Shown: one piece after another, positions 3,357-63,124 of the stretch
Layout of the letters: the number at the start of each line of letters is the position of its first letter
Numbering within the stretch: position 1 is the first letter of the stretch
DNA from: Microvelia longipes
Taxonomy: Eukaryota > Arthropoda > Insecta > Hemiptera > Veliidae
Assembly: GCA_018340805.1 (NCBI GenBank)
Contig: JACMZG010001870.1
Coordinates: 46,006,006 to 46,070,005 of the forward strand
Length of the DNA stretch: 64,000 nucleotides
Reading direction: 5' to 3'
Program-made: the position numbers and the translations under genes
The notes under the pieces: generated by a model
The model's input: only the letters and a program-made list of their open reading frames with translations
Told to the model about the DNA's origin: nothing
Database searches by the model: none

Positions 3357-3839
3357 ACAATGCTTTAATGTTAAAAATAACTTTTGTGTTTGTATCAGAA
3401 AAATATTTGCCTTTCCTTACAAACATTATCCGGGTTATTTTAGGATATTTATGAAATATTGGCAAATACAATTAAAGTAATTAAATGGGGAAGCGAGGTG
3501 TCAACTATGACGGAGATATTTAGGGCATGTCAATCATGAGCCATATCAAGGAGCAGGACTTCAGGAAGGGGTATGCTAGGGTTGTGACGCAGATAGGCTA
3601 GAGGAAAGGGTTACCGCTCTGTAACCATTTTGGAGGAAGGAGAAAATTAATGCCTCTGTTTAGTCACTATCTTTAATTAAGTAGTTATTTTCATAAGAGT
3701 CTCATGTTCTAGGCTTTAAAATTCTCATAAATTTGCCTAAGAAATTACTCGTTGTCGTAACTATAAAGGATATAATTCAGTGCACTAATTACTACCTGGG
3801 ACCAATAGTTTTTTTTACTAAACCAAGCATTGCTTGTAA
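3357..3839. other. No gene recognised
   Basis: Low-copy-looking AT-rich sequence with a slightly more GC-balanced part around 3480-3650. No repeat partner was noticed elsewhere in the window and no domain is recognisable. Confidence 0.4.
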
Positions 3840-4116
3840 TAGACCAAGAGCCTAGAGGTGTTTTGTTAATAAAAAGTAATGCTGGAACCGGTCTCATTTT
3901 TTCGTAAATACCTCCTGAACAAGGATCTGCAATTCTACGACTCGTATCGGATGGTGTCCCAGGCAGAACCTTTGACCTAGTGCGTTCTGCCTGGACACCC
4001 ATCCGATACGAGTCGGTAGAATTGCAGATCCTTGTTCAGGAAGGTATTTACGAAAATTGAAACCGTTTCAGTCATTACACTTTTTATTAACCAAACACCC
4101 CTGGGCTCTTGGTCTA
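3840..4116. mobile_element. Fold-back element family B, copy 1
   Basis: A 277-bp near-perfect palindrome. The left arm starts TAGACCAAGAGCC and the right arm ends GGGCTCTTGGTCTA. Each arm is about 130 bp, and the arms meet around 3968-3980. A second copy, with a triplicated left arm, lies at 33694-34258. The termini may be flanked by TA. No coding capacity is present, so it is a non-autonomous fold-back or MITE-type element. Confidence 0.8.
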
Positions 4117-4382
4117 TAAATTTGATGGTTGTAAAATTATATAAATAAAAAATAAAATACTGTTTTGTACTAACAGGTACAAAACTTTGTAAAAATCACT
4201 CAAGATGTCTTGAAAATATAAAAAAAGACAATTTAAGAGGAAGCTCGGTTTCGGAAAAGACAGAATAAATTTATTTTAAAAATACTTTTAGCGAATTTTC
4301 ATCATGAATCATGAAGATTACACTTATAAGATTCAATTCCGTTCGGCTTCTTGATACAAAAAAACTTTGCCGAAAATATAAT

Positions 4383-10828: not shown

Positions 10829-11475
10829 CGAAAAAAGGATAATATGAAAGGAAATTGACAATTTTCCTCCCGGAAAAAATGAAATAGTTTGGCTTCCGGA
10901 TTTCAGCACTTACAAGTTGTAAAATGTGAAGCAGTGAGAAAGTTGAATTTTCAGAGGGAAATATGCCAAGATGATACCTAAAGTTCATACATATTCATAA
11001 AAGTAAAAACTTCTCTTTCCAACATCAATATTTAGCAAAAGTGAAAACTCGAGAAATTATATTCTAAACTGGTTGTTATTGTTTTTTTATTACTATTACG
11101 AATATTTCACTAATTTGAACATAACCATTGTCAATAAGTAATTATTGAAAATGGAGACAAGTAACTATTGAAGGATCATTTCAATTATGACTTCTCTGAA
11201 TGAGAGTCATAGTATAGCCAACTGATAATAATGACAGTAAGCTGAAACTGGTCCAGGAATATTCGCATCCAACAGCAAGTATCAATGGAAGCTGATTTTT
11301 CAGCTGAAGATAGTAAGTTTGATAACCATACATATAGATAAAACATTATCTTACCCTGTTTATTCTTGGAGTCTATATGAGCATGTAGTATATTGATACC
11401 AGGTACTACAATAGCAGGTAATGTTCGGGATCTGAGGAGAGGAGCGGGTAGCTTTACATCACCTTCAAGGCACTG
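10829..11475. other. No gene; holds a ribozyme fold-back arm fragment
   Basis: Mostly unassigned. Positions 11246-11310 match one arm of the fold-back at 18414-18779 (GAAACTGGTCCAGG, then AACAGCAAGTATC and AGCTGATT), but the CTGATGA half of the ribozyme core is absent, so it is a truncated relic. Confidence 0.5.
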
Positions 11476-14524: not shown

Positions 14525-15580
14525 TTATTCAATATGTAAACCACCACGTTCGACGCACAGTTCTAATCTTTTCTTGAATTCATTATAGACTCTGCCTAAC
14601 ATTTCTTCGGTCACTGTTTCCACTGCTTCTCGTATCTTGTTTTTTAAAATATTTACATCATGAGGAACAGTTTCGTGAAATACTTTCTGTTTCAAGTACC
14701 CCCACAGAAAGAAATCAATCCATTGTTGTTAGGTCAGGGGAACGCGCAGGCCAAGCAATAGGTCCAAATCGTCCTATCCATTTTCCTGGAAATTTATGGT
14801 CTAACCAATTTCTGACGTTATAGGCTGAATGCGCCGGACATCCATCTTGTTGGAAATGCATTATTTGTCTAAAGTCTAAATTTTTTTCGTCCAACTATGG
14901 CCAAAAAAAAATTGTCTAATAAATGTAAGTAGCTGTCTTGGTTCAGTGCCCCCGTCTAAAAAATATGGTCCAATTATTTTTGTTGGTGTCATGGCGCACC
15001 ATACATTTACTTTTTAAAATTTTTGACTGTTTGTAGTAATAGAATAATTTGGATTGTCCTGTGTCCAGTATCGTGCGTTTTGTGAGGATACATGTCCGTT
15101 AGTACTAAAAGTCGATTCGTCGCTAAATATTATTCGTTTGTGGAAATTTCGGTTTCGGTCTATTTTTTCACTTAATGTCAAACTAAAGTCAAGTCTTAGT
15201 GCGTCGTCTCCGTCTTCTAGTTTGTGTAGAAAATGAGGTTTATATGGATGGTATTGGTTTACTTTCAAAATTTTCTGTAAGTGAGATTTACTGATCATTA
15301 GTTCCTGCTGTCTGATTTTGAGCGACTTGGAGGGAATACCCCTTACGGAATCTAGTACCAACAATGTTGCTGCGTCGTCTTCATTGTATTCTTTTCTCTG
15401 CTTTTTTACGTCAGCGACACTGCCGGTTCGCACAAATTTTTCAATTATTTTTTTTAAATTTTGCCTGGTTGCGTTAACATTAGGAAATCTAATATGAAAC
15501 AGTTCTATAGCTCGAGCGTATGTTACGTCCCCAATACCGTAACCCTGAACTAAGTATATTCTCTGTTCTTGCGTTAACAT
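14525..15580 (-). pseudogene. Tc1/mariner-superfamily transposase, DDD type, inactivated
   Basis: This is the remnant of the cut-and-paste transposase that would bind the element's ends and move it. The intact N-terminal part (188 codons, 15580 to 15014) starts MLTQEQRIYL and has a helix-turn-helix-like region in about residues 1-110. The first catalytic Asp is residue 154, in FSDEST. An in-frame TAA follows at 15014-15016. Downstream the reading continues (KVNVWCAM) and then needs a frame change at an A-run at 14903-14911. The second Asp codon is 14844-14846 (QQDGCPAH) and the third is 14718-14720 (PDLTTMD). The last two are in the same frame with 41 residues between them. A further frame break follows immediately, with a TGA at 14715-14717. 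The natural stop appears to be at 14525-14527. The full product would be about 350 residues, normal for the family. The family call is confident; the DD41D-type subfamily is inference. Confidence 0.92.
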
Positions 15581-15824
15581 CTTGAATTAATAAAAGAATT
15601 TAAAAAATTAAAAAGTTATTTAAATTAGCATTAGCAAACAATATTAATAATATCGTCTAACTTACCACTTTAGAAAAAATAATGTCTTAGTTAGTACAAG
15701 TTCAATAATTATTTAAGTACGAATAATACTTTCAATAATTGCAAAAAAAAAAAAGTAATAATCTACTTAATCAAGTCATCAAAATCATAAGTATTTATTA
15801 AAGTACAAAACAAAATACACGTGG

Positions 15825-17940: not shown

Positions 17941-18413
17941 AAATAAAGTTAATGAGTATATAATAATAAAGTTAATACTTGATTACGTTTATTGTTTTGT
18001 GCATTTTAGACAGAAATATTGCAATTATATATTTATTATGATAAATGTAATAATAGATATTTTGATGACGCCTTGAACTATGGGACAAAGTATAATCTTT
18101 TTTATCTTATACACTTGGTTCAGCTAGGTCGAAATTTTCAATAAACATTTTACAACCTTTAAACCCTTGCTTTATTATTTATACTGACAATATAACCTTT
18201 ACAGTGTTATATTACAAAATAACCTTATCAGGAGGTTATATCCTATATTTTTAAAGCCTGTGTAGCTGGTAATCTGTTTCAGGCATCAGCTAACTTATAA
18301 TTAAAAAGTTTATTTATGAAAATAAAAGAAAAACGTAAAAAAGTATACAACATGACGTCAGCATTTTTGTTTTTACTTCTTTTCATTCCGTCGGTACAAA
18401 GAAAAAGTATAGT
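17941..18413. other. No gene recognised
   Basis: AT-rich, no repeat partner noticed. The last 12 bases, AAAAAGTATAGT at 18402-18413, are the left target duplication of the next element. Confidence 0.45.
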
Positions 18414-18509
18414 TTTTACCTTAAAATTAAAAAGGTTGTATTTACCGCAAGTTGAAGAAGCAACCGAAGAATCAGCTACCGTCGATACTTGCTGTTGGAT
18501 ATAAAAATC

Positions 18510-18546
18510 CCTGGACCGGTTTCGGCATATCGCCATCATCAGCAGG
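18510..18546 (-). ncRNA. Hammerhead-like self-cleaving ribozyme, minus strand
   Basis: Read on the minus strand: helix I CCTG with CAGG (4 bp), core CTGATGA, one extra T, helix II GGC-GATAT-GCC, GAAA, then a palindromic helix III ACCGGT and cleavage base C. All core elements are present. Helix III is a 6-nt palindrome, so activity might need dimerisation, as known for minimal hammerheads. The T between CTGATGA and helix II departs from the textbook motif. Confidence 0.6.
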
Positions 18547-18698
18547 CTGGGCAACACTCGAGCTCTCAACAAATAAAGTTATATCAGTGATTAACTTCTA
18601 GTCTCAATGAGCATCTTCAGAGGGTTCGTCGTGCTCATTGAGACTAGAAGTTAATCACTGATATAACTTTATTAGTTGAGAGCTCGAGTGTTGCCCCG

Positions 18699-18735
18699 CC
18701 TGCTGATGATGGCGTTATGCCGAAACCGGTCTAGG
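18699..18735 (+). ncRNA. Hammerhead-like self-cleaving ribozyme, plus strand
   Basis: Mirror copy in the right arm: helix I CCTG with TAGG (one G-T wobble), CTGATGA at 18703-18709, helix II GGC-GTTAT-GCC, GAAA at 18722-18725, helix III ACCGGT, cleavage base C at 18731. The helix II loop differs from the minus-strand copy while the stem is kept. Confidence 0.6.
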
Positions 18736-18879
18736 GATATTTATATCCAATAGCAAGTATCGACGGTAGCTGATTCTTCAAAAAGTATAGTGTTTAACAA
18801 AAACCCATATCAAGGATTTTACCTTTAATTGATCATTTTCAGGTATTTGTAACACCTTACGAAAATAAGGACTGACAAG

Positions 18880-33348: not shown

Positions 33349-33693
33349 AATAATTATGTATTAGTTTTGCGTTAAAAGTAAAAATGTTGCGTATAAATAG
33401 TTAATGAAAGTTTCGAACAACGGCCAGGAATAAAGTTTCCATCATGGCTTCAATAACAATAGTTTTGTTTAGGAAAAATAATAATGAAGACAGCAGTCTG
33501 AGTTTTATTAGATTAATTTATTTCATTAGAGCATTCGCACAAGCGATACTTGACATCCTCAGTGAATCTAATAACAAGTAAACAAATTTAAAAAAAAAAA
33601 TGTAATATTAACTTTTGGTTTAATGCTCTTAACTGTATTTTACATTTGTCGTGGTGTAACTATATTAATTATTGTAAGTTTGGGCTATGATTA

Positions 33694-34258
33694 TAGACCA
33701 AGAGCCCAGGGGTGTTTAGTTAATAAAAAGTGTAATGGCTGGAACCGGTCTCAATTTTTCGTAAATACCTTTCTGAACAAGGATCTGCAATTCTGCCGAC
33801 TCGTATCGGATGGGTGTCCCAGGCAGAACGCACTTTACATGTAAAATTTACCACCCAAGTTAATAAGTGTAATGGCTGGAAACGGGTTTTAATTTTTCGT
33901 AAATACCTTCCTGAACAAGGATCTGCAATTCTGCCGACTCGTATCGGATGGGCGTCCCAGGCAGAACGCACTTTACAGGTCAAATTTACCACCCAAGTTA
34001 ACAAACAGTGTAATGGCTGGAACCGGTCTCAATTTTTCGTAAATACCTTCCTGAACACGGATCTGCAATTTTGCAGACACGTATCGGATGGGTGTCCCAG
34101 GCAGAACCTTTGACCCCTAAAGTGCGTTCTGCCTGGGACACCATCCGATACGAGTCGGCAGAATTGCAGATCCTTGTTCAGGAAGGTTTACGAAAAATTG
34201 AGACCGGTTCCAGCCATTACACTTTTTATTAACAAAACACCCCTGGGCTCTTGGACTA
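33694..34258. mobile_element. Fold-back element family B, copy 2, with triplicated arm
   Basis: Starts TAGACCAAGAGCCCAGGGG and ends CCCCTGGGCTCTTGGACTA. The left arm module (TGTAATGGCTGGAACCGGTC to GTCCCAGGCAGAACGCACTT) is repeated three times in tandem (about 33730, 33868, 34008). A single inverted copy forms the right arm. The shared module matches the copy at 3840-4116. Confidence 0.85.
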
Positions 34259-34381
34259 TTATTTTAATATTAACTTGCATTTGTTTTGATTGTTTTTTCA
34301 AAACAAACCTTGTTTGGTATGTATATTTTTATTTCTGTTTTTTTGTAATTGGTTTATGGTTTTGTTTACTTGTTATTAGAT

Positions 34382-34421
34382 TCACTGAGGATGCCAAGCA
34401 TCGCTTGTGCGAAAGCTCTGA
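34382..34421 (+). ncRNA. Hammerhead-like ribozyme, plus strand
   Basis: Helix I TCA with TGA (3 bp), core CTGAGGA (allowed variation at the seventh core position), one extra T, helix II of 7 bp between GCCAAGC and GCTTGTGC with one bulged T, GAAA, palindromic helix III AGCT, cleavage base C at 34418. The helices differ from those at 18510 and 59116 but pair in the same places. Confidence 0.5.
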
Positions 34422-34745
34422 TGAAATAAATTAATCTAACAAAACTCGGACTCCTGTCAACTATTTAATTCTTAAATATTTTTGTTATTCCATATCATAA
34501 AATAGTCTTCTTCTTTAAACCCATGAAATAGTTTTACTGTCGCTACGAACAACTCTCATGACGAGACAAATTATTAACAATCGAATGGCTAATCAATTTA
34601 GAGTTGTAGAATTTATCTTGCATCTGTTATTTCTTCTTTTTATGAAATGTTATAGTAAATAATACAAATACTCATAAGCATTCTTTGTTGATAATTCTGA
34701 CAAGAAAACAAATTCCTACGACAAATATAGGGACTATAGTACGAT

Positions 34746-40214: not shown

Positions 40215-41560
40215 AGCACTGAAGAAGATAACTTAATTAAAAGAGCTTCTTCATCTAAATTGAGACTTGATGAAGCTCTCATGCTTTATTGAAAGAAATT
40301 TTTCAACTAGCAAGATCACTGATGAAGCTCTCAAGCTTATGAAAGAACTTTTTCAATCAAGATCAAAGGCTGAAAGATCTAGCAAGTGAAGCTATCAAGC
40401 TTTATGAAAGAACTTTTTCATCTAGCAAGAGCACTGATGAAGTTATCAAGCTTTATCGAAAGAACTTTTTCATCTAGCAAGATCACTGATGAAGCTCTCA
40501 AGCTTTATTGAAAGAACTTTTTCATCTAGCAAGATCACTGATGAAGCTCTCAAGCTTTATGGAAAGAACTTTTTCATCTAGCAAGATCACTAATGAAGCT
40601 ATCAAGCTTTATCGAAAGAACTTTTTCATCTAGCAAGAGCACTGATGAAGCTCTCAAGCTTTATCGAAGGAACTTTTTCATCTAGCAAGAGCACTGATAA
40701 AGTTCTCAAGCTTTATCGAAGGAACTTTTTCATCTAGCAAGAGCACTGATGAAGCTCTCAAGCTTTATTGAAAGAACTTTTTCATCTAGCAAGATCACTG
40801 ATAAAGCTCTCATGCTTTATTGAAAGAACTTTTTCATCTAGCAAGAGCATTGATGAAGTTCTCAAGCTTTATCGAAAGAACTTTTTCATCTAGCAAGATC
40901 ACTGATAAAGCTCTCAAGCTTTATTGAAAGAATTTTTTCATCTAGCAAGATCACTGATGAAGCTCTCAAGCTTTATCGAAGGAACTTTTTCATCTAGCAA
41001 GATCACTGATAAGCTCTCAAGCTTATTGAAAGAATTTTTCATCTAGCAAGAGCACTGATGAAGCTCTCAAGCTTTATCGAAGGAACTTTTTCATCTAGCA
41101 AGAGCACTGATGAAGCTCTCAAGCTTTATTGAAAGAACTTTTTCATCTAGCAAGAGCACTGATGAAGCTCTCAAGCTTTATCGAAGGAACTTTTTCATCT
41201 AGCAAGAGCACTGATGAAGTTCTCTCAAGCTTTTATAGGCAAGAAGCACTGATAAGCTCTCAAATTGAAAGAACTTTTTCATCTAGCAGAGCACTGATGA
41301 AGCTCTCAAGCTTTATCGAAGAACTTTTTCATCTAGCAAGAGCACTGATGAAAGCTCTCAAGCTGTTATCGAAGGAACTTTTTCATCTAGCAAGAGCACT
41401 GATGAAGTTCTCAAGCTTTATCGAAGGAACTTTTTCATCTAGCAAGAGCACTGATGAAGCTCTCAAGCTTTATTGAAAGAACTTTTTCATCTAGCAAGAG
41501 CACTGATGAAGCTCTCAAGCTTTATTGAAAGAACTTTCATTTAGTATGATCACTGAAGAA
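40215..41560. repeat. Satellite, 52-bp unit
   Basis: About twenty-five copies of GATGAAGCTCTCAAGCTTTA, TCGAAAGAACTTTTTCATCT and AGCAAGAGCACT. Variants alternate (ATCGAAGG versus ATTGAAAG). Degenerate copies continue to about 41650. The frame 41129-41476 reads through units. Confidence 0.95.
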
Positions 41561-45010: not shown

Positions 45011-45500
45011 ATCATATAAAAACCTAAAACTAAAACTATTTTAGTCCTTTGCAGAAAAGCTTACGATGGTATTTTTTTACACAGGTGAGGCAATTTTCAT
45101 GAAGAACGAAGGAGTTGTTGGGCGAGGTCAGCACAATTAGTTTGCCTAAAGCCCACCAGGTAGCGAGATAAACCACGGTTTTCTTTGGAACAGGTTTAGA
45201 ATACTAATTGCCACGAGGTCTTCAAGCCTCTTACAAGTCAAATAGAACAAACTATAGCTTAGACTTACTAAGCAACTGCTTAATTAAGCCCTCTATAACT
45301 TTTTCTACTTCAGGTAATTTAAGCTGACGAATAAACCTTAACAAAGCTTTCCCGGTTTCTTTTTACGAAGGGAATTCTTTGCGAAAATTCTTTATCAAGA
45401 TTGCATACTAACAGATATTTTTAGATTTGTATCATTAATTGTTTTGACGGAGATTTTGATGTATAGACTCACCATGATGTTAAATAAAATAAACAAACTA
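45011..45500. other. No gene recognised
   Basis: AT-rich, nothing identifiable. Confidence 0.4.
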
Positions 45501-45700
45501 GAATTAAAAACAATTAATATATTGTCGACCACAATAGTATAAAAAATTATAACTGACCGGTTTCGACTTACATCATCAGAGCTGTACATCATGTGACTGA
45601 GTCTGTAAAGTCTCTCTCATTAGCTCTGATACCGACGTAAAGTTGAAACTGGTCAGTTATATTTTTTTATACTATCGTGGTTGACAATGTATTAATTGTT
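45501..45700. mobile_element. Fold-back element with degenerate hammerhead-like cores
   Basis: Inverted arms GAATTAAAAACAATTAATAT and ATTAATTGTT frame CACAATAGTATAAAAAATTA and its inverse. The minus core (45551-45583) has helix I AGCT with AGTT, CTGATGA, a shortened helix II, GAAA, ACCGGT and C. The plus core (45622-45658) has CTGATAC and GAAACTGGTC. Neither looks fully competent. A sister copy is at 46876-47049. Confidence 0.65.
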
Positions 45701-46173
45701 TTTTTTTGAGGTAGTACGTAATTGAGCACTTTATTGGACCGTTTTTTAGGATGAGAAGCCAATCATTATTGTACTAGGAGGTTATTTTTAGTACTTTTCA
45801 CCTCCGAGGACAATAATGAATGTAAAAAACTCCTAGGACGTAAAAGTAATTCATATATTGCCGCCATTACTGTAATGTAGCGTGTTCAAAAAAACAATCT
45901 GTGTTAAACCCTCATGTGGTTTATTTAAAAACATTCATTTTGTTTTTGTTTTTGTTCGTAGACTAATTTTTATTCGTTTTTAAAAGGTGTTTTAATTAAC
46001 ATTGTGTGTTGTTTATTTGTAAAGCTTTTACTTTTGAGTAAAAGTGTGAAGTGTGATTCCCCGTCATTGGATGAATTCAATGACGGGGATAATATAGAGT
46101 TAATTGGACGTGTGTTTTTTTTTTCAATTAAGTATATAGCGCAATTTATTTAATGAGTGCTACCTCAAAAAAA
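45701..46173. mobile_element. TIR element with TTTTTTTGAGGTAG ends
   Basis: A 473-bp element bounded by TTTTTTTGAGGTAG and CTACCTCAAAAAAA (14-bp TIR). It holds a strong hairpin CCCCGTCATTG / CAATGACGGGG at about 46058-46088. It starts exactly where the preceding fold-back ends. No coding region and no family assignment. Confidence 0.6.
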
Positions 46174-46299: not shown

Positions 46300-46339
46300 T
46301 ATTATAATTGTAGTTTGTTTTTTTTATTAAACATCATTT

Positions 46340-46600
46340 TGAGGCCAAATGCTTCTTGACTTATAGTGATAGAACACTCTTAAGTTTCCATTATAAATGT
46401 GATAAAAGAGTATTCCTTAAAAGGATATATATTAGAAGGAGCTTAGCCTATCGCAATATAATACGTGGCCTTAAACATCTTTTAGGGGCTCTATGTAACC
46501 TAATTAAAACCTCCTTCAAGAGTGAGTTAAGGTTATAATAAATTATTTTCGTCAACCCATACACTGTAGGCGTTTTGATTTGTATTTTTACGTTCTATAT

Positions 46601-46725: not shown

Positions 46726-46865
46726 ATTATATATATATATATATATATATCTATATTATATATATATATATATCTTTATATATATATATATATATATATA
46801 AGTTACTGTAATTTTACACTAATTATTTGATTATATTTATAAGCGAAGGTGGTCAGATTAGTATA
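46340..46865 (+). repeat. Dispersed repeat family H, copy 1
   Basis: GCTTCTTGACTTATAGTGAT, CACTCTTAAGTTTCCATTAT, GGGGCTCTATGTAACC and AACCCATACACTGTAGGCG, then a (TA)n tract (about 46595-46800), then TATTTATAAGCGAAGGTGG. The same order is found at 58858-59645 without the TA tract. The frame 46356-46538 lies inside it, with no recognisable family. Confidence 0.8.
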
Positions 46866-46875
46866 AAGCGAAGGT

Positions 46876-47049
46876 GTCACCACAATAGTATAAAAAAATA
46901 TAACTGACCAGTTTCGACTTTACGTCATCATCACTAGCTGGTTACAGAGTTCTTAAACAGCTCTGGATATGACGTAAAGTCGAAACCGGGTCAGTTATAT
47001 TTTTTTTATACTATTGTTGGTTGACAATATATTAATTGTTTTCAATTCC
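46876..47049. mobile_element. Fold-back element with hammerhead-like cores, sister copy
   Basis: Same family as 45501-45700. The minus core (46902-46939) has a perfect helix II GAC-GTAAA-GTC and GAAACTGGTC, but the core begins GTGATGA. The plus core (46959-46996) has the same helix II and GAAACC, with CTGGATA and an extra G in helix III. Reading both copies together gives the likely ancestral motif. Confidence 0.65.
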
Positions 47050-47578
47050 AGTGGGTTTTTTATTAAACATTTAGATTAGTAGCTGAGAAATAGTTATTCA
47101 TAAAATTGGGTAGGTAGGAAAAATTATATTTGTACTAACTATTTACAAACTTCAAATCTAATTTACGAATAAGATTAGCCTATATAAATTACCTGCTGAA
47201 GAAAACGCAAACGATTTTAGTTAGTTAGTTATTGGCGAACATATATATTTATTGGTGTGAAAGTTAAAATTATACGAAAACGTTTGTTTACATCTGTAAA
47301 AATCATACCGTTCTACCACAGATAACAACCCTATACGGCAAGATTGTCGACTTCTATCTTCTTCTACCTTCGACACTCTACTAGCGCTGATCCCCTAAAC
47401 TAGCGGTGACAATTGGAAACAAAATTAACTCCCTGCCGCCTTTTTACAAACCTTTACTTGAAACGAGCACATAATAGTTTTTCGAGCTGTATAGGGACAT
47501 CCCTAAACGGTTCACACTACCAATAATTTCTGTTATTTTCATTATAAATAATGCGCCAAAGGAAAAATGGCACACTAC
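47050..47578. other. No gene recognised
   Basis: Mixed-composition, possibly unique sequence. The last bases CACTAC resemble CACTAC on the right side of the next element. Confidence 0.4.
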
Positions 47579-58857: not shown

Positions 58858-59061
58858 GTGATTCCGAATGCTTCTTGACTTATGGTGACAGAACACTCTT
58901 AAGTTTCCATTATAAATGTGATAAAAGAGAATTTCTTAAAGAGATATATATTAGAAAGAGCATAGCCTATCTCAATATAATATTACGTTTAAACATTTTA
59001 TAGGGGCTCTATGAAACCTAATTAAAACCTCCTCCAAGAATGAGTTAAGATTATAATAAAT
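58858..59061 (+). repeat. Dispersed repeat family H, copy 2, left part
   Basis: Matches 46345-46545. It is cut at ATTATAATAAAT by the element at 59062-59518 and resumes at 59519. Confidence 0.85.
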
Positions 59062-59115
59062 AAATAAAACAGATTAGTTACACAAAAGTCCTTTTATTTT
59101 TTAATATATAATAAT

Positions 59116-59154
59116 AACTAAGCTTTCGACTAAAAATTAGTCATCATCAGAGTT
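59116..59154 (-). ncRNA. Hammerhead-like self-cleaving ribozyme, minus strand
   Basis: On the minus strand: helix I AACT with AGTT (4 bp, perfect), CTGATGA, one extra T, helix II GACTAA-TTT-TTAGTC (6 bp), GAAA, palindromic helix III AGCT, cleavage base T. Every element is intact. Confidence 0.62.
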
Positions 59155-59384
59155 TAAGAAATATAAAATATAAAATGAAAAAACAATTTTACAGACTACT
59201 TCATATTGCACCTTGGTATGTTTTGGTAAGCTATGTTTAAAATTATAAACTTTAATTTTTAAAAACTAAAATAAACTAAAACTTATAAACTAAAATTTTT
59301 AAACATAGCTTACCAAAACATACCAAGGTGCAATATGAAGTAGTCTGTTAAATTGTTTTTTCATTTTATATTTTATATTTCTTA

Positions 59385-59423
59385 AACTCTGATGATGACT
59401 AATTTTTAGTCGAAAGCTTAGTT
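59385..59423 (+). ncRNA. Hammerhead-like self-cleaving ribozyme, plus strand
   Basis: Mirror copy, fully intact: AACT 59385-59388, CTGATGA 59389-59395, helix II 59397-59411, GAAA 59412-59415, AGCT, cleavage base T at 59419, AGTT 59420-59423. Confidence 0.62.
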
Positions 59424-59518
59424 ATTATTATATATTAAAAAATAAAAGGACTTTTTGTGTAACTAATCTGTTTTTATTTATATATTGTTTTACAAGTCCA
59501 CAAATAAGAAACTTTTTA

Positions 59519-59645
59519 ATTATAATAAATTATTTTCGTCAACCCATACACTGTTGGCGTTTTGATTTGTATATAAGTTACTGTAATTTGTACTGATTAT
59601 TTGATTATATTTATAAGCGAAGGTGGTCAGATTACCTTTGCGATG
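59519..59645 (+). repeat. Dispersed repeat family H, copy 2, right part
   Basis: TATTTTCGTCAACCCATACA, GGCGTTTTGATTTGTATA, then TATTTATAAGCGAAGGTGG, continuous with 58858-59061 once the fold-back is removed. It lacks the (TA)n expansion of copy 1. Confidence 0.85.
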
Positions 59646-61900: not shown

Positions 61901-62430
61901 TTGCAACAGTCGATCTGAAGAGTTTATTGTAAAGTCTTAGGCGTGACAGAAAGATAAACTATGGTGACAAAGGCTTTTATTTCAGAGCCACCTTTCACCA
62001 GTCCTCTCAGTTAGGCCTCTGATTTCGTGATGACCAGTAAAAATTATCAACACAAGTTTTATCAACTCAGTTACCAGGTCAAGAACATAGTATTGATTCA
62101 TCGTATTATAATTTTAATATTAAATAATCTAAATACATTATTTAATATGTTATTTTACGCCAATTCAATGTTTTAAAGATTACATTCTATAGTAAATATA
62201 TTTAGCTATGTTTTTAATTTGCGTTTTGAAAGACATTCATTGAGAAGTTAGTGCGTAAACACACTATTACTAGTGTGTTTTGAAGACATTTTGTTTGAAG
62301 ACATCCCTCTAAAAACATGAAGAATTTCGGAGGTACTTAGAAGAACGATTTGCTTAATTTACTTCTCCTAAAAAAATAGCGATTTTTTCCCCAAAAAATT
62401 ACATCATTTCTTCTTAGAGCAATATAAGGG
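61901..62430. other. No gene recognised
   Basis: AT-rich, nothing identified. Confidence 0.4.
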
Positions 62431-62715
62431 GAATCAGCTTCTTTCGATACTTGCTGTTGCATATGAATATCGCTGTACCGGTTTTAGCTTAACGCCATCA
62501 TTAGCAGGCGAGGCAACACTCGAGCTCTTATCTAATAGTAATTCACTAATAAAGGAATATAACTAATGATATAACTTTATTAGTTGAGAGCTCGAGTGTT
62601 GCCCCACCTGCTGATGAGAGCGTTATGCCGAAACCGGTCCAGGGATATTCTTATCCAACAGCGAATACCGACGGTAGCTGATTCTTCAACTTGCGGTAAA
62701 TATAACTTATTTATA
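62431..62715. mobile_element. Fold-back element with hammerhead-like cores, second copy
   Basis: Sister of 18414-18779 (GAATCAGCTTCTTTCGATAC at the left, GACGGTAGCTGATTCTTCAA at the right). The plus core 62607-62643 keeps CTGATGA, GAAA, ACCGGT, C and a perfect CCTG / CAGG helix I, but helix II is damaged (AGC opposite GCC). The minus core 62473-62508 is decayed (CTAATGA, no GAAA). The long side is on the right here. Confidence 0.7.
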
Positions 62716-63124
62716 GAATAATCAGTGAAGAAAGCATTGTTACTCAATTGAATGATAACTAGAATTTCCCAAAGTTCATAAAAAACGCAGAGAAACCCCT
62801 ACCAACTGTAAAAACATCTAGGAAAGCGTTTTGTCGTGTTTATCTCGTTCTCATATGTGCAGTCACACGGGTATGGACTACACAGTTAAATGCAGACTTC
62901 AAACAAATAACAAAGCAATTTTATAGTACTTACTGGGTTTTACCTGGTTATGCAATATTTTTTGTAATAGTTGAAAAATCCAACTCAAATTTCTCTGCTC
63001 TAAACTCTTAATGGGATATTTTGAAAATATTTTTTTTATTTCTGTTTCCCGACGCAATGTATGAATTTAACGTGCTTTTTGCAGGAGATTAAATATCAAC
63101 AACTTTATTCACTAAACATTTAGA
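62716..63124. other. No gene recognised
   Basis: AT-rich, nothing identified. Confidence 0.4.

Follow-up and report, generated by a model that had tools for sequence, protein, structure and literature searches.

A fold-back insertion with a hammerhead motif in each arm in Microvelia longipes, probably a Penelope-like element reduced to two head-to-head pLTRs

Inverted pLTRs, a tail and minimal hammerheads are each already known for Penelope-like elements (PLEs). The minimal type I hammerheads of PLEs were described by Cervera and de la Pena (2014) and by Lunse, Weinberg and Breaker (2017), as cited in the available passages of PMC7761336 and PMC6155905, where such motifs are also said possibly to act as dimers. 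For rotifer PLEs, self-priming on the cDNA was proposed as an origin of palindromes (available part of PMC3846280). In PAc (Poseidon, Anolis carolinensis), the hammerhead requires protein for cleavage, hammerhead mutants left insertion in vitro unaffected, and RNA-seq ends at the cleavage site were not seen (PMC11167929). A search of the open-access literature by title and abstract returned no report joining fold-back pLTR pairs with hammerheads.

The insertion described here lies in a 64-kb window of the M. longipes genome (64,000 nucleotides of contig JACMZG010001870.1, the whole stretch of DNA that was analysed; all coordinates refer to it). The insertion, its family (B) and its host site comprise the following features:

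59050-59061, plus strand: left copy of the 12-bp target-site duplication, ATTATAATAAAT, perfect
59062-59518: family B fold-back insertion inside repeat H
59062-59242, minus strand: putative short pLTR without tail, directed outward to the left (from the inverted arm 59084-59242 and the arm alignments)
59116-59154, minus strand: minimal hammerhead motif, predicted cleavage adjoining 59120
59243-59296, no strand: non-palindromic centre between both pLTRs
59297-59479, plus strand: putative second pLTR, directed outward to the right; with the tail 97-100% identical to the pLTRs of 20 fetched copies
59385-59423, plus strand: minimal hammerhead motif, predicted cleavage after 59419
59480-59518, plus strand: putative PLE 'tail' of ~39 nt at the right end only, no left partner
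59519-59530, plus strand: right copy of the 12-bp target-site duplication, ATTATAATAAAT, perfect
46340-46585, plus strand: empty site, a part of repeat H without the insertion

A preliminary description of this DNA had proposed a palindromic insertion with a perfect 12-bp target duplication, and the alignment of the arms and the duplication on both sides agree with it. The inverted arms (59084-59242 and 59297-59455) are 159 nt long each, 99% complementary and 54 nt apart. The palindrome is asymmetric: ~39 nt at the right end are unpaired. The arms are as described, and the extra tail had been missed. Terminal inverted repeats at both ends, accordingly, were not found; the tail is on one side. 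The uninserted copy of repeat H named in that description was recovered as the empty site. Its identity to the two sides of the insertion is 88.6% and 98.1%, and the 12-bp target sequence occurs once in repeat H, within 46530-46550.

The plus motif reads AACU-CUGAUGA-U-GACUAA/UUAGUC-GAAA-GCU-U, followed past the predicted cut by AGUU. The preliminary description had placed one intact motif in each arm, and its coordinates were correct. Its layout of core and helices also held; the unpaired T between CTGATGA and helix II had escaped it. The two 39-nt motifs are identical. They are both present, as claimed, and are not independent: because the arms copy each other, they count as one observation. 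The hammerhead core (CUGANGA ... GAA, A-U, H17) is complete. A helix III inside one motif was not found, only a self-complementary AGCU (family B) or ACCGGU (families A and F). This palindromic helix III fits the minimal PLE hammerheads that possibly act as dimers.

A strict descriptor, which required the full core, at least 4 bp in helix II, at least 4 in helix I and either a helix III or a palindrome, found four sites in the 64-kb window and none in 100 dinucleotide shuffles. The four sites were the pair in the insertion and a second pair at 18542 (minus) and 18703 (plus). With a relaxed descriptor, the same four window sites were found, against one site in 20 shuffles. A chance origin of the motifs was rejected on these two comparisons. 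As a control, the core string CTGATGATG-N5-24-CGAAACCGGTC had 33 matches in prokaryote genomes, with a stem II of at least 3 in three of them, a stem I of at least 4 in two and both in none; in IMG/VR, it had no match.

The second pair belongs to a fold-back of another family, A, which was absent from the preliminary description. Further fold-backs and motifs in the window were labelled C to F:

18402-18413 and 18780-18791: target-site duplication of family A, 12/12
18414-18779, no strand: putative family A PLE fold-back, tail at the left end
18510-18546, minus strand: family A hammerhead motif
18699-18735, plus strand: family A hammerhead motif
62428-62720, no strand: decayed copy C, related to family A, tail to the right; motifs at 62607-62643 (plus) and 62472-62508 (minus)
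11221-11257, plus strand: single decayed motif D, related to family A
45470-45703, no strand: family F copy 1, decayed motifs at 45622-45658 (plus) and 45551-45583 (minus); ends approximate
46864-47072, no strand: family F copy 2, motifs at 46959-46996 (plus) and 46902-46938 (minus); ends approximate
33470-34474, no strand: candidate family E, inverted arms; motif-like sites at 34385 (plus) and 33562 (minus)

Families E and F are putative PLEs, by architecture and motif only. The arms of family F begin near stem I, and a tail-like piece lies at 46302-46331. A 12-bp duplication around copy F1 was dropped, as one of its copies sits in sequence common to F2. Candidate E, an insert of ~1 kb, has a CTGAGGA core at the hammerhead-like sites of both arms and a possible 12-bp duplication (11/12). 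Its interior holds direct repeats of ~137 nt, which also occur at 3837-4126; the insert may thus represent foreign sequence that was trapped between the pLTRs of a PLE.

Two other parts of the window were noted. At 40319-41513, there is an array with units mostly ~52 nt apart, most with CTGATGA and then GAAAG or GAAGG; the hammerhead descriptor gave no match on it. At 15014-15586 (minus), a 190-aa frame has a weak match to the helix-turn-helix family DUF4817, slightly below the Pfam cut-off. A homologue search with this frame returned two unnamed proteins only. We take it to be a mariner-type transposase.

The covariance-model check suggested in the preliminary description, which counted the lack of a hit against its reading, gave none with the existing models: no Rfam hammerhead family reached the gathering score in the whole window, and none was listed at E values up to 10 around 59062-59518 and 18414-18779. 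We then aligned nine motifs of A, B, C and F (eight distinct rows) out of 13 motifs. Left out were E_R and E_L, whose long stem II was misaligned by MAFFT, and the decayed D and F2_R. In stems I and II, 92.6% of the 54 cells were paired, and the pairing fell to 37-38% when the partners were slid by one column. In 500 shuffles, the observed values were never matched, whether for the number of paired cells, for the number of cells with both sides changed or for the covariation score. Coarser measures were less telling: the number of pairs changed on both sides (5/7) and the number of further pair types were equalled in 241 and 240 of 500 shuffles, respectively. Stems I and II thus covary among three families in the window, with compensated variation in all four pairs of stem I.

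A covariance model built from the window motifs listed 11 motifs at E < 1e-4, nine of which were its own input. For candidate E, it gave E = 1 only at the plus site, and the minus site was not listed. When family B was left out of the model, the B motif scored E = 0.15 over the window, equal to an unrelated site, and E = 0.0011 when searched within the insertion. The motif alone is insufficient, because a model free of family B scores it level with an unrelated site; the case for family B rests on the place of the motif in the common architecture. Rfam microRNA precursor families were also listed for the hairpins 59189-59350 and 18528-18717. They scored far below their gathering scores, and a microRNA precursor was rejected for this reason; the listings are probably an effect of the hairpin shape.

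The class of the element was read from its sister copies. A search of the genome (664.6 Mb) with the insertion gave 1467 first-look candidates, of which 40 were scored and yielded 103 matches. A near-identical pLTR and tail were listed at 24 places, and 20 of these were fetched. The features of PLEs (direct or inverted pLTRs, a 30-40 bp tail on one of them and a target-site duplication) recur there. A second, inverted pLTR was found at 19 of the 20 places, and each of these 19 pairs stands head to head; only one pLTR of the pair reaches the tail end in 18 of them. As the places were chosen for carrying one tail, the unbiased part of this count is the other arm only. The exception, L073 (G000:C562:55675000-55683000), is the sole one of these copies whose two inverted pLTRs both run to the tail end; it shows no clear target duplication.

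The sequence between the two pLTRs ranges from 0 to 2318 nt in the 19 two-arm places. All 11 interiors of at least 300 nt translate to pieces of PLEs, as judged by eye. The pieces include reverse transcriptase (RT; QMGGPLSG, YVDD) and GIY-YIG endonuclease (YKIPCSQCPQYYIGETK), and some interiors have an asparagine-rich linker. Pfam scores for three interior pieces were 41.9 and 27.8 bits for RVT_1 (cut-off 29.6) and 22.4 for GIY-YIG (cut-off 22.6), so two of the three fall slightly below the cut-off. When the window itself was scanned for PLE hallmarks by regular expressions, no convincing match emerged.

In family A, the fold-back gave 1363 first-look candidates in the genome. All 40 scored places match over almost the full fold-back length with 90-100% identity. 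The peptide that starts at an AUG inside the hammerhead gave 5008 first-look candidates, and 150 of 150 scored match; a protein database search with it returned no homologue. One copy (L096) has a 549-aa stop-to-stop frame that holds MMALCRNRSRD..., begins in the hammerhead and crosses the tail to YVDDIF. This frame itself reached no Pfam family. Other frames of the same copy reached RVT_1 (32.4 bits) and GIY-YIG (23.3 bits), both above the Pfam cut-off.

Sister copies in both families, A and B, thus hold RT and GIY-YIG sequences, which the copy at 59062-59518 lacks. Because sister copies with the same pLTRs enclose RT and GIY-YIG fragments, this copy is very probably a PLE copy reduced to two head-to-head pLTRs with a minimal hammerhead in each. 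The preliminary description had proposed a short non-autonomous element and had named PLEs as one home of such ribozymes. Both statements hold for this retroelement derivative with its hammerhead-type motifs.

Conservation was measured on 72 arm pieces, 33 from 16 palindromic places and 39 from 20 near-identical places (74 before the removal of L051, which coincides with L080). In the diverged palindromic copies, the mean pairwise difference per site was 0.041 in the motif, 0.147 and 0.108 in the flanks and 0.122 in the tail. The preliminary description had named a core mutating as often as its flanks as evidence against a ribozyme, and the diverged copies give the opposite result. Among 145 stretches of 39 nt, the five with the lowest difference start at q86-q90; the exact motif (q89) ranks fourth. 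The hammerhead region was thus shown statistically to be the best conserved part of the pLTR in the diverged copies. In the 20 near-identical copies, the difference was 0.0067 in the motif and 0.0212 and 0.0083 in the flanks, the 3' flank being kept almost as well as the motif. The exact 39-nt motif was found in 53 of the 72 arm pieces (one piece has no letters there and one is partial). The motif is unusually well kept among the sister copies.

The motif also touches a reading frame. CTGATGATG contains two AUGs, the second at stem II. The second is created by the unpaired U between A9 and G10.1 (A9-U10-G10.1) and lies at the start of the family A frame, so that motif and frame start overlap in A. 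Most motifs of B, E and F retain the unpaired U, which is absent from F1_R and C_R. Behind the AUG, the frame closes after 5 codons in B, 12 in E and 2-3 in F. The predicted cut lies 26 nt (A) or 28 nt (B) from the first AUG and 3 nt less from the second.

Self-cleavage of transcripts from either strand, as proposed in the preliminary description, is not supported, because the hammerhead is lacking in the predicted folds of the insert, one arm and the dimer. When the whole insertion is folded, on either strand, the antisense arm takes up all 39 ribozyme nucleotides. Nor is a hammerhead the lowest-energy fold of a single arm or of a dimer with two motifs. Isolated motifs were no more stable than their shuffles (six motifs, z from -1.05 to -0.10; 28 to 82 of 200 shuffles were equally stable). 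Outward transcripts may cleave as dimers or with protein.

These folds fit another reading of the PLE pLTR pair, in which the stem-loop serves the PLE protein (binding, RT start, AUG context) and ribozyme function has been lost. The overlap of the motif with the frame start in family A also fits it, as do the protein requirement of the PAc hammerhead and the insertion of its mutants (PMC11167929). On the other hand, conservation falls on the letters of the hammerhead core, and compensated changes occur among three families in each of the four stem I pairs. Moreover, most motifs retain the extra U despite the closed frames of B, F and E. We regard a loss of ribozyme function as possible and, on balance, unlikely.

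The ends of the copies were compared next. In the family B survey, 36 loci were entered and 32 returned. A clear target duplication (score of at least 9) was found in 27 of the 32, most commonly of 12 bp (10/27) and then of 13 bp (6/27). Counted from the first AUG, the short end falls at 83-95 nt in 24 of the 27 copies and at 72, 117 and 127 in the other three. For family A, 12 of the 40 scored places were fetched and the window copy was added. Perfect duplications of 12-15 bp were found in 10 of these 13 copies, with ends at +110 to +123 (tail) and +74 to +86 (short) from the first AUG; sister copies suggest that the tail end of the window copy sits a few nt further in. The corresponding ends of the copy at 59062-59518 are +127 (tail) and about +86 to +88 (short). 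Random placements, run for the window copies of B and A and not for the 32-copy survey, had a 12-bp match at such spacing in 59 of 1500 (B) and 103 of 1500 cases (A). As 12-bp matches are not rare in this repetitive window, it is the empty site and the family counts that carry weight.

The palindromes could be copied as units or be formed anew at each place. The first is what a fold-back or MITE-like DNA transposon would do, with hammerheads that are irrelevant or accidental. The palindromic shape, the target duplication and the high copy number are in keeping with such a transposon, and so is the match of every scored family A place to nearly the whole fold-back. Copying as a unit is best supported by the common centres of family A: 4 of 12 are exactly alike, a fifth has one letter changed and two share another. 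In family B, by contrast, 13 centres were read among 17 aligned palindromes, and all 13 were different. Against the transposon, the ends are not mutual inverted repeats, since the tail is on one end only.

The arms point the same way. Arms differ less within a copy than between copies: 0.021 versus 0.031 in A, 0.090 versus 0.110-0.112 in the B palindromes and 0.008 versus 0.014 in the near-identical B set. When arms were re-paired at random 20000 times, the observed value was reached 0, 23 and 0 times, respectively (L076, with one arm, is absent from these statistics, and L067 has no within-copy distance). An arm thus resembles its partner more than it resembles the arm on that side in other copies. 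Between copies, the distances for arms on one side and for arms on opposite sides agree to within 0.002, and none of the A and B sets showed a majority difference specific to one arm. A fold-back transposon was therefore rejected on its asymmetric ends and the arm statistics, and for family B it is refuted by the coding sister copies; we consider it highly improbable. The likeness of the arms within a copy means that the palindromes, for the most part, arise from a single template during insertion or were homogenised later, which gene conversion between the arms could do.

A metazoan retrozyme would be a small non-autonomous element that releases its tandem hammerhead units as circular RNA. 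This is equally improbable and was rejected: hammerhead, low G+C, non-coding sequence and a target duplication of more than 4 bp are as in metazoan retrozymes (available part of PMC7229834), but the motifs are head to head and not in direct tandem in 19 of 19 two-arm places, sister copies hold PLE coding fragments, and helix III is reduced as in PLE motifs (available part of PMC7761336).

For a PLE, the following course may be proposed. The PLE protein would nick AT-rich DNA. Reverse transcription would start inside the RNA, for one end ~110-127 nt past the first AUG and for the other mostly 74-95 nt past it. Both ends would thus face outward, and a palindrome would result, via extension from both nicks or via self-priming on the cDNA. 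Extension from both nicks is suggested as the alternative to self-priming by analogy with PAc. The hammerhead is predicted to cleave outward PLE transcripts only as a dimer via the palindromic helix III or when bound by protein, and to be inactive in the full-length fold-back transcript.

A further reading, which we put forward as a long shot, joins these points. The palindromic helix III would pair two PLE RNAs, and the protein-bound RNA dimer would be the integrating template. A dimer of the PLE protein would cut and extend both DNA strands, and each nick would be primed on one RNA, at two different internal start sites. Head-to-head pairs with one tail, as in 18 of 19 places, would follow. 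If this is true, the hammerhead is kept for dimerisation and template release and is not a processing ribozyme.

One genome with more than 1000 first-look candidates for each of the families A and B, many of the scored ones near-identical, is a direct record of PLE insertion. This record bears on the role of hammerheads in PLEs and on the origin of inverted pLTRs. In it, the ribozyme region changes least in diverged copies although the frame behind it is closed, each of the two ends keeps to a narrow range of distances from the AUG, and a tail is almost always confined to one end. Sister copies in one genome show how such palindromes arise, at insertion or by homogenisation afterwards, and the record yields concrete predictions for in vitro integration assays.

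Known systems resemble the locus to different degrees. Metazoan retrozymes share the non-autonomous state, type I hammerheads and target duplications; they differ in their tandem units, circular RNAs and lack of a PLE body (available part of PMC7229834). The plus-strand hammerhead of Chrysanthemum chlorotic mottle viroid also has an extra unpaired nucleotide between A9 and G10.1, an A, and its change to U raised the trans-cleaving rate 3-4-fold; unlike the PLE motif here, it is a viroid ribozyme (available part of PMC3705267). The minimal PLE hammerheads share the core with reduced or absent helix III, the dispersal in animal genomes and the place in PLE pLTRs. Compared with those in the available passages of PMC7761336 and PMC6155905, the insertion has two opposite motifs in one short sequence and the unpaired U between A9 and G10.1.

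Penelope of Adineta vaga, in the available part of PMC3846280, has mostly head-to-head inverted pLTRs with a 31-bp tail on one, target duplications, palindromes at the inverted junction, 5'-truncated copies and asparagine-rich insertions near RT (between RT and EN in one Pen2a lineage), all as found here. Its target duplications are 8-10 bp long, compared with mostly 12-13 bp here, and the word hammerhead does not occur in that text. PAc (PMC11167929) differs in its tandem or partial-tandem copies, as opposed to head-to-head pairs with little or no body, and in its frame, as that of family B closes directly behind the AUG. In PAc as here, GIY-YIG and RT are encoded, hammerhead stems I and II lie at the ORF start, internal RT start sites set the ends, the tail lies between two start sites, and the targets are AT-rich.
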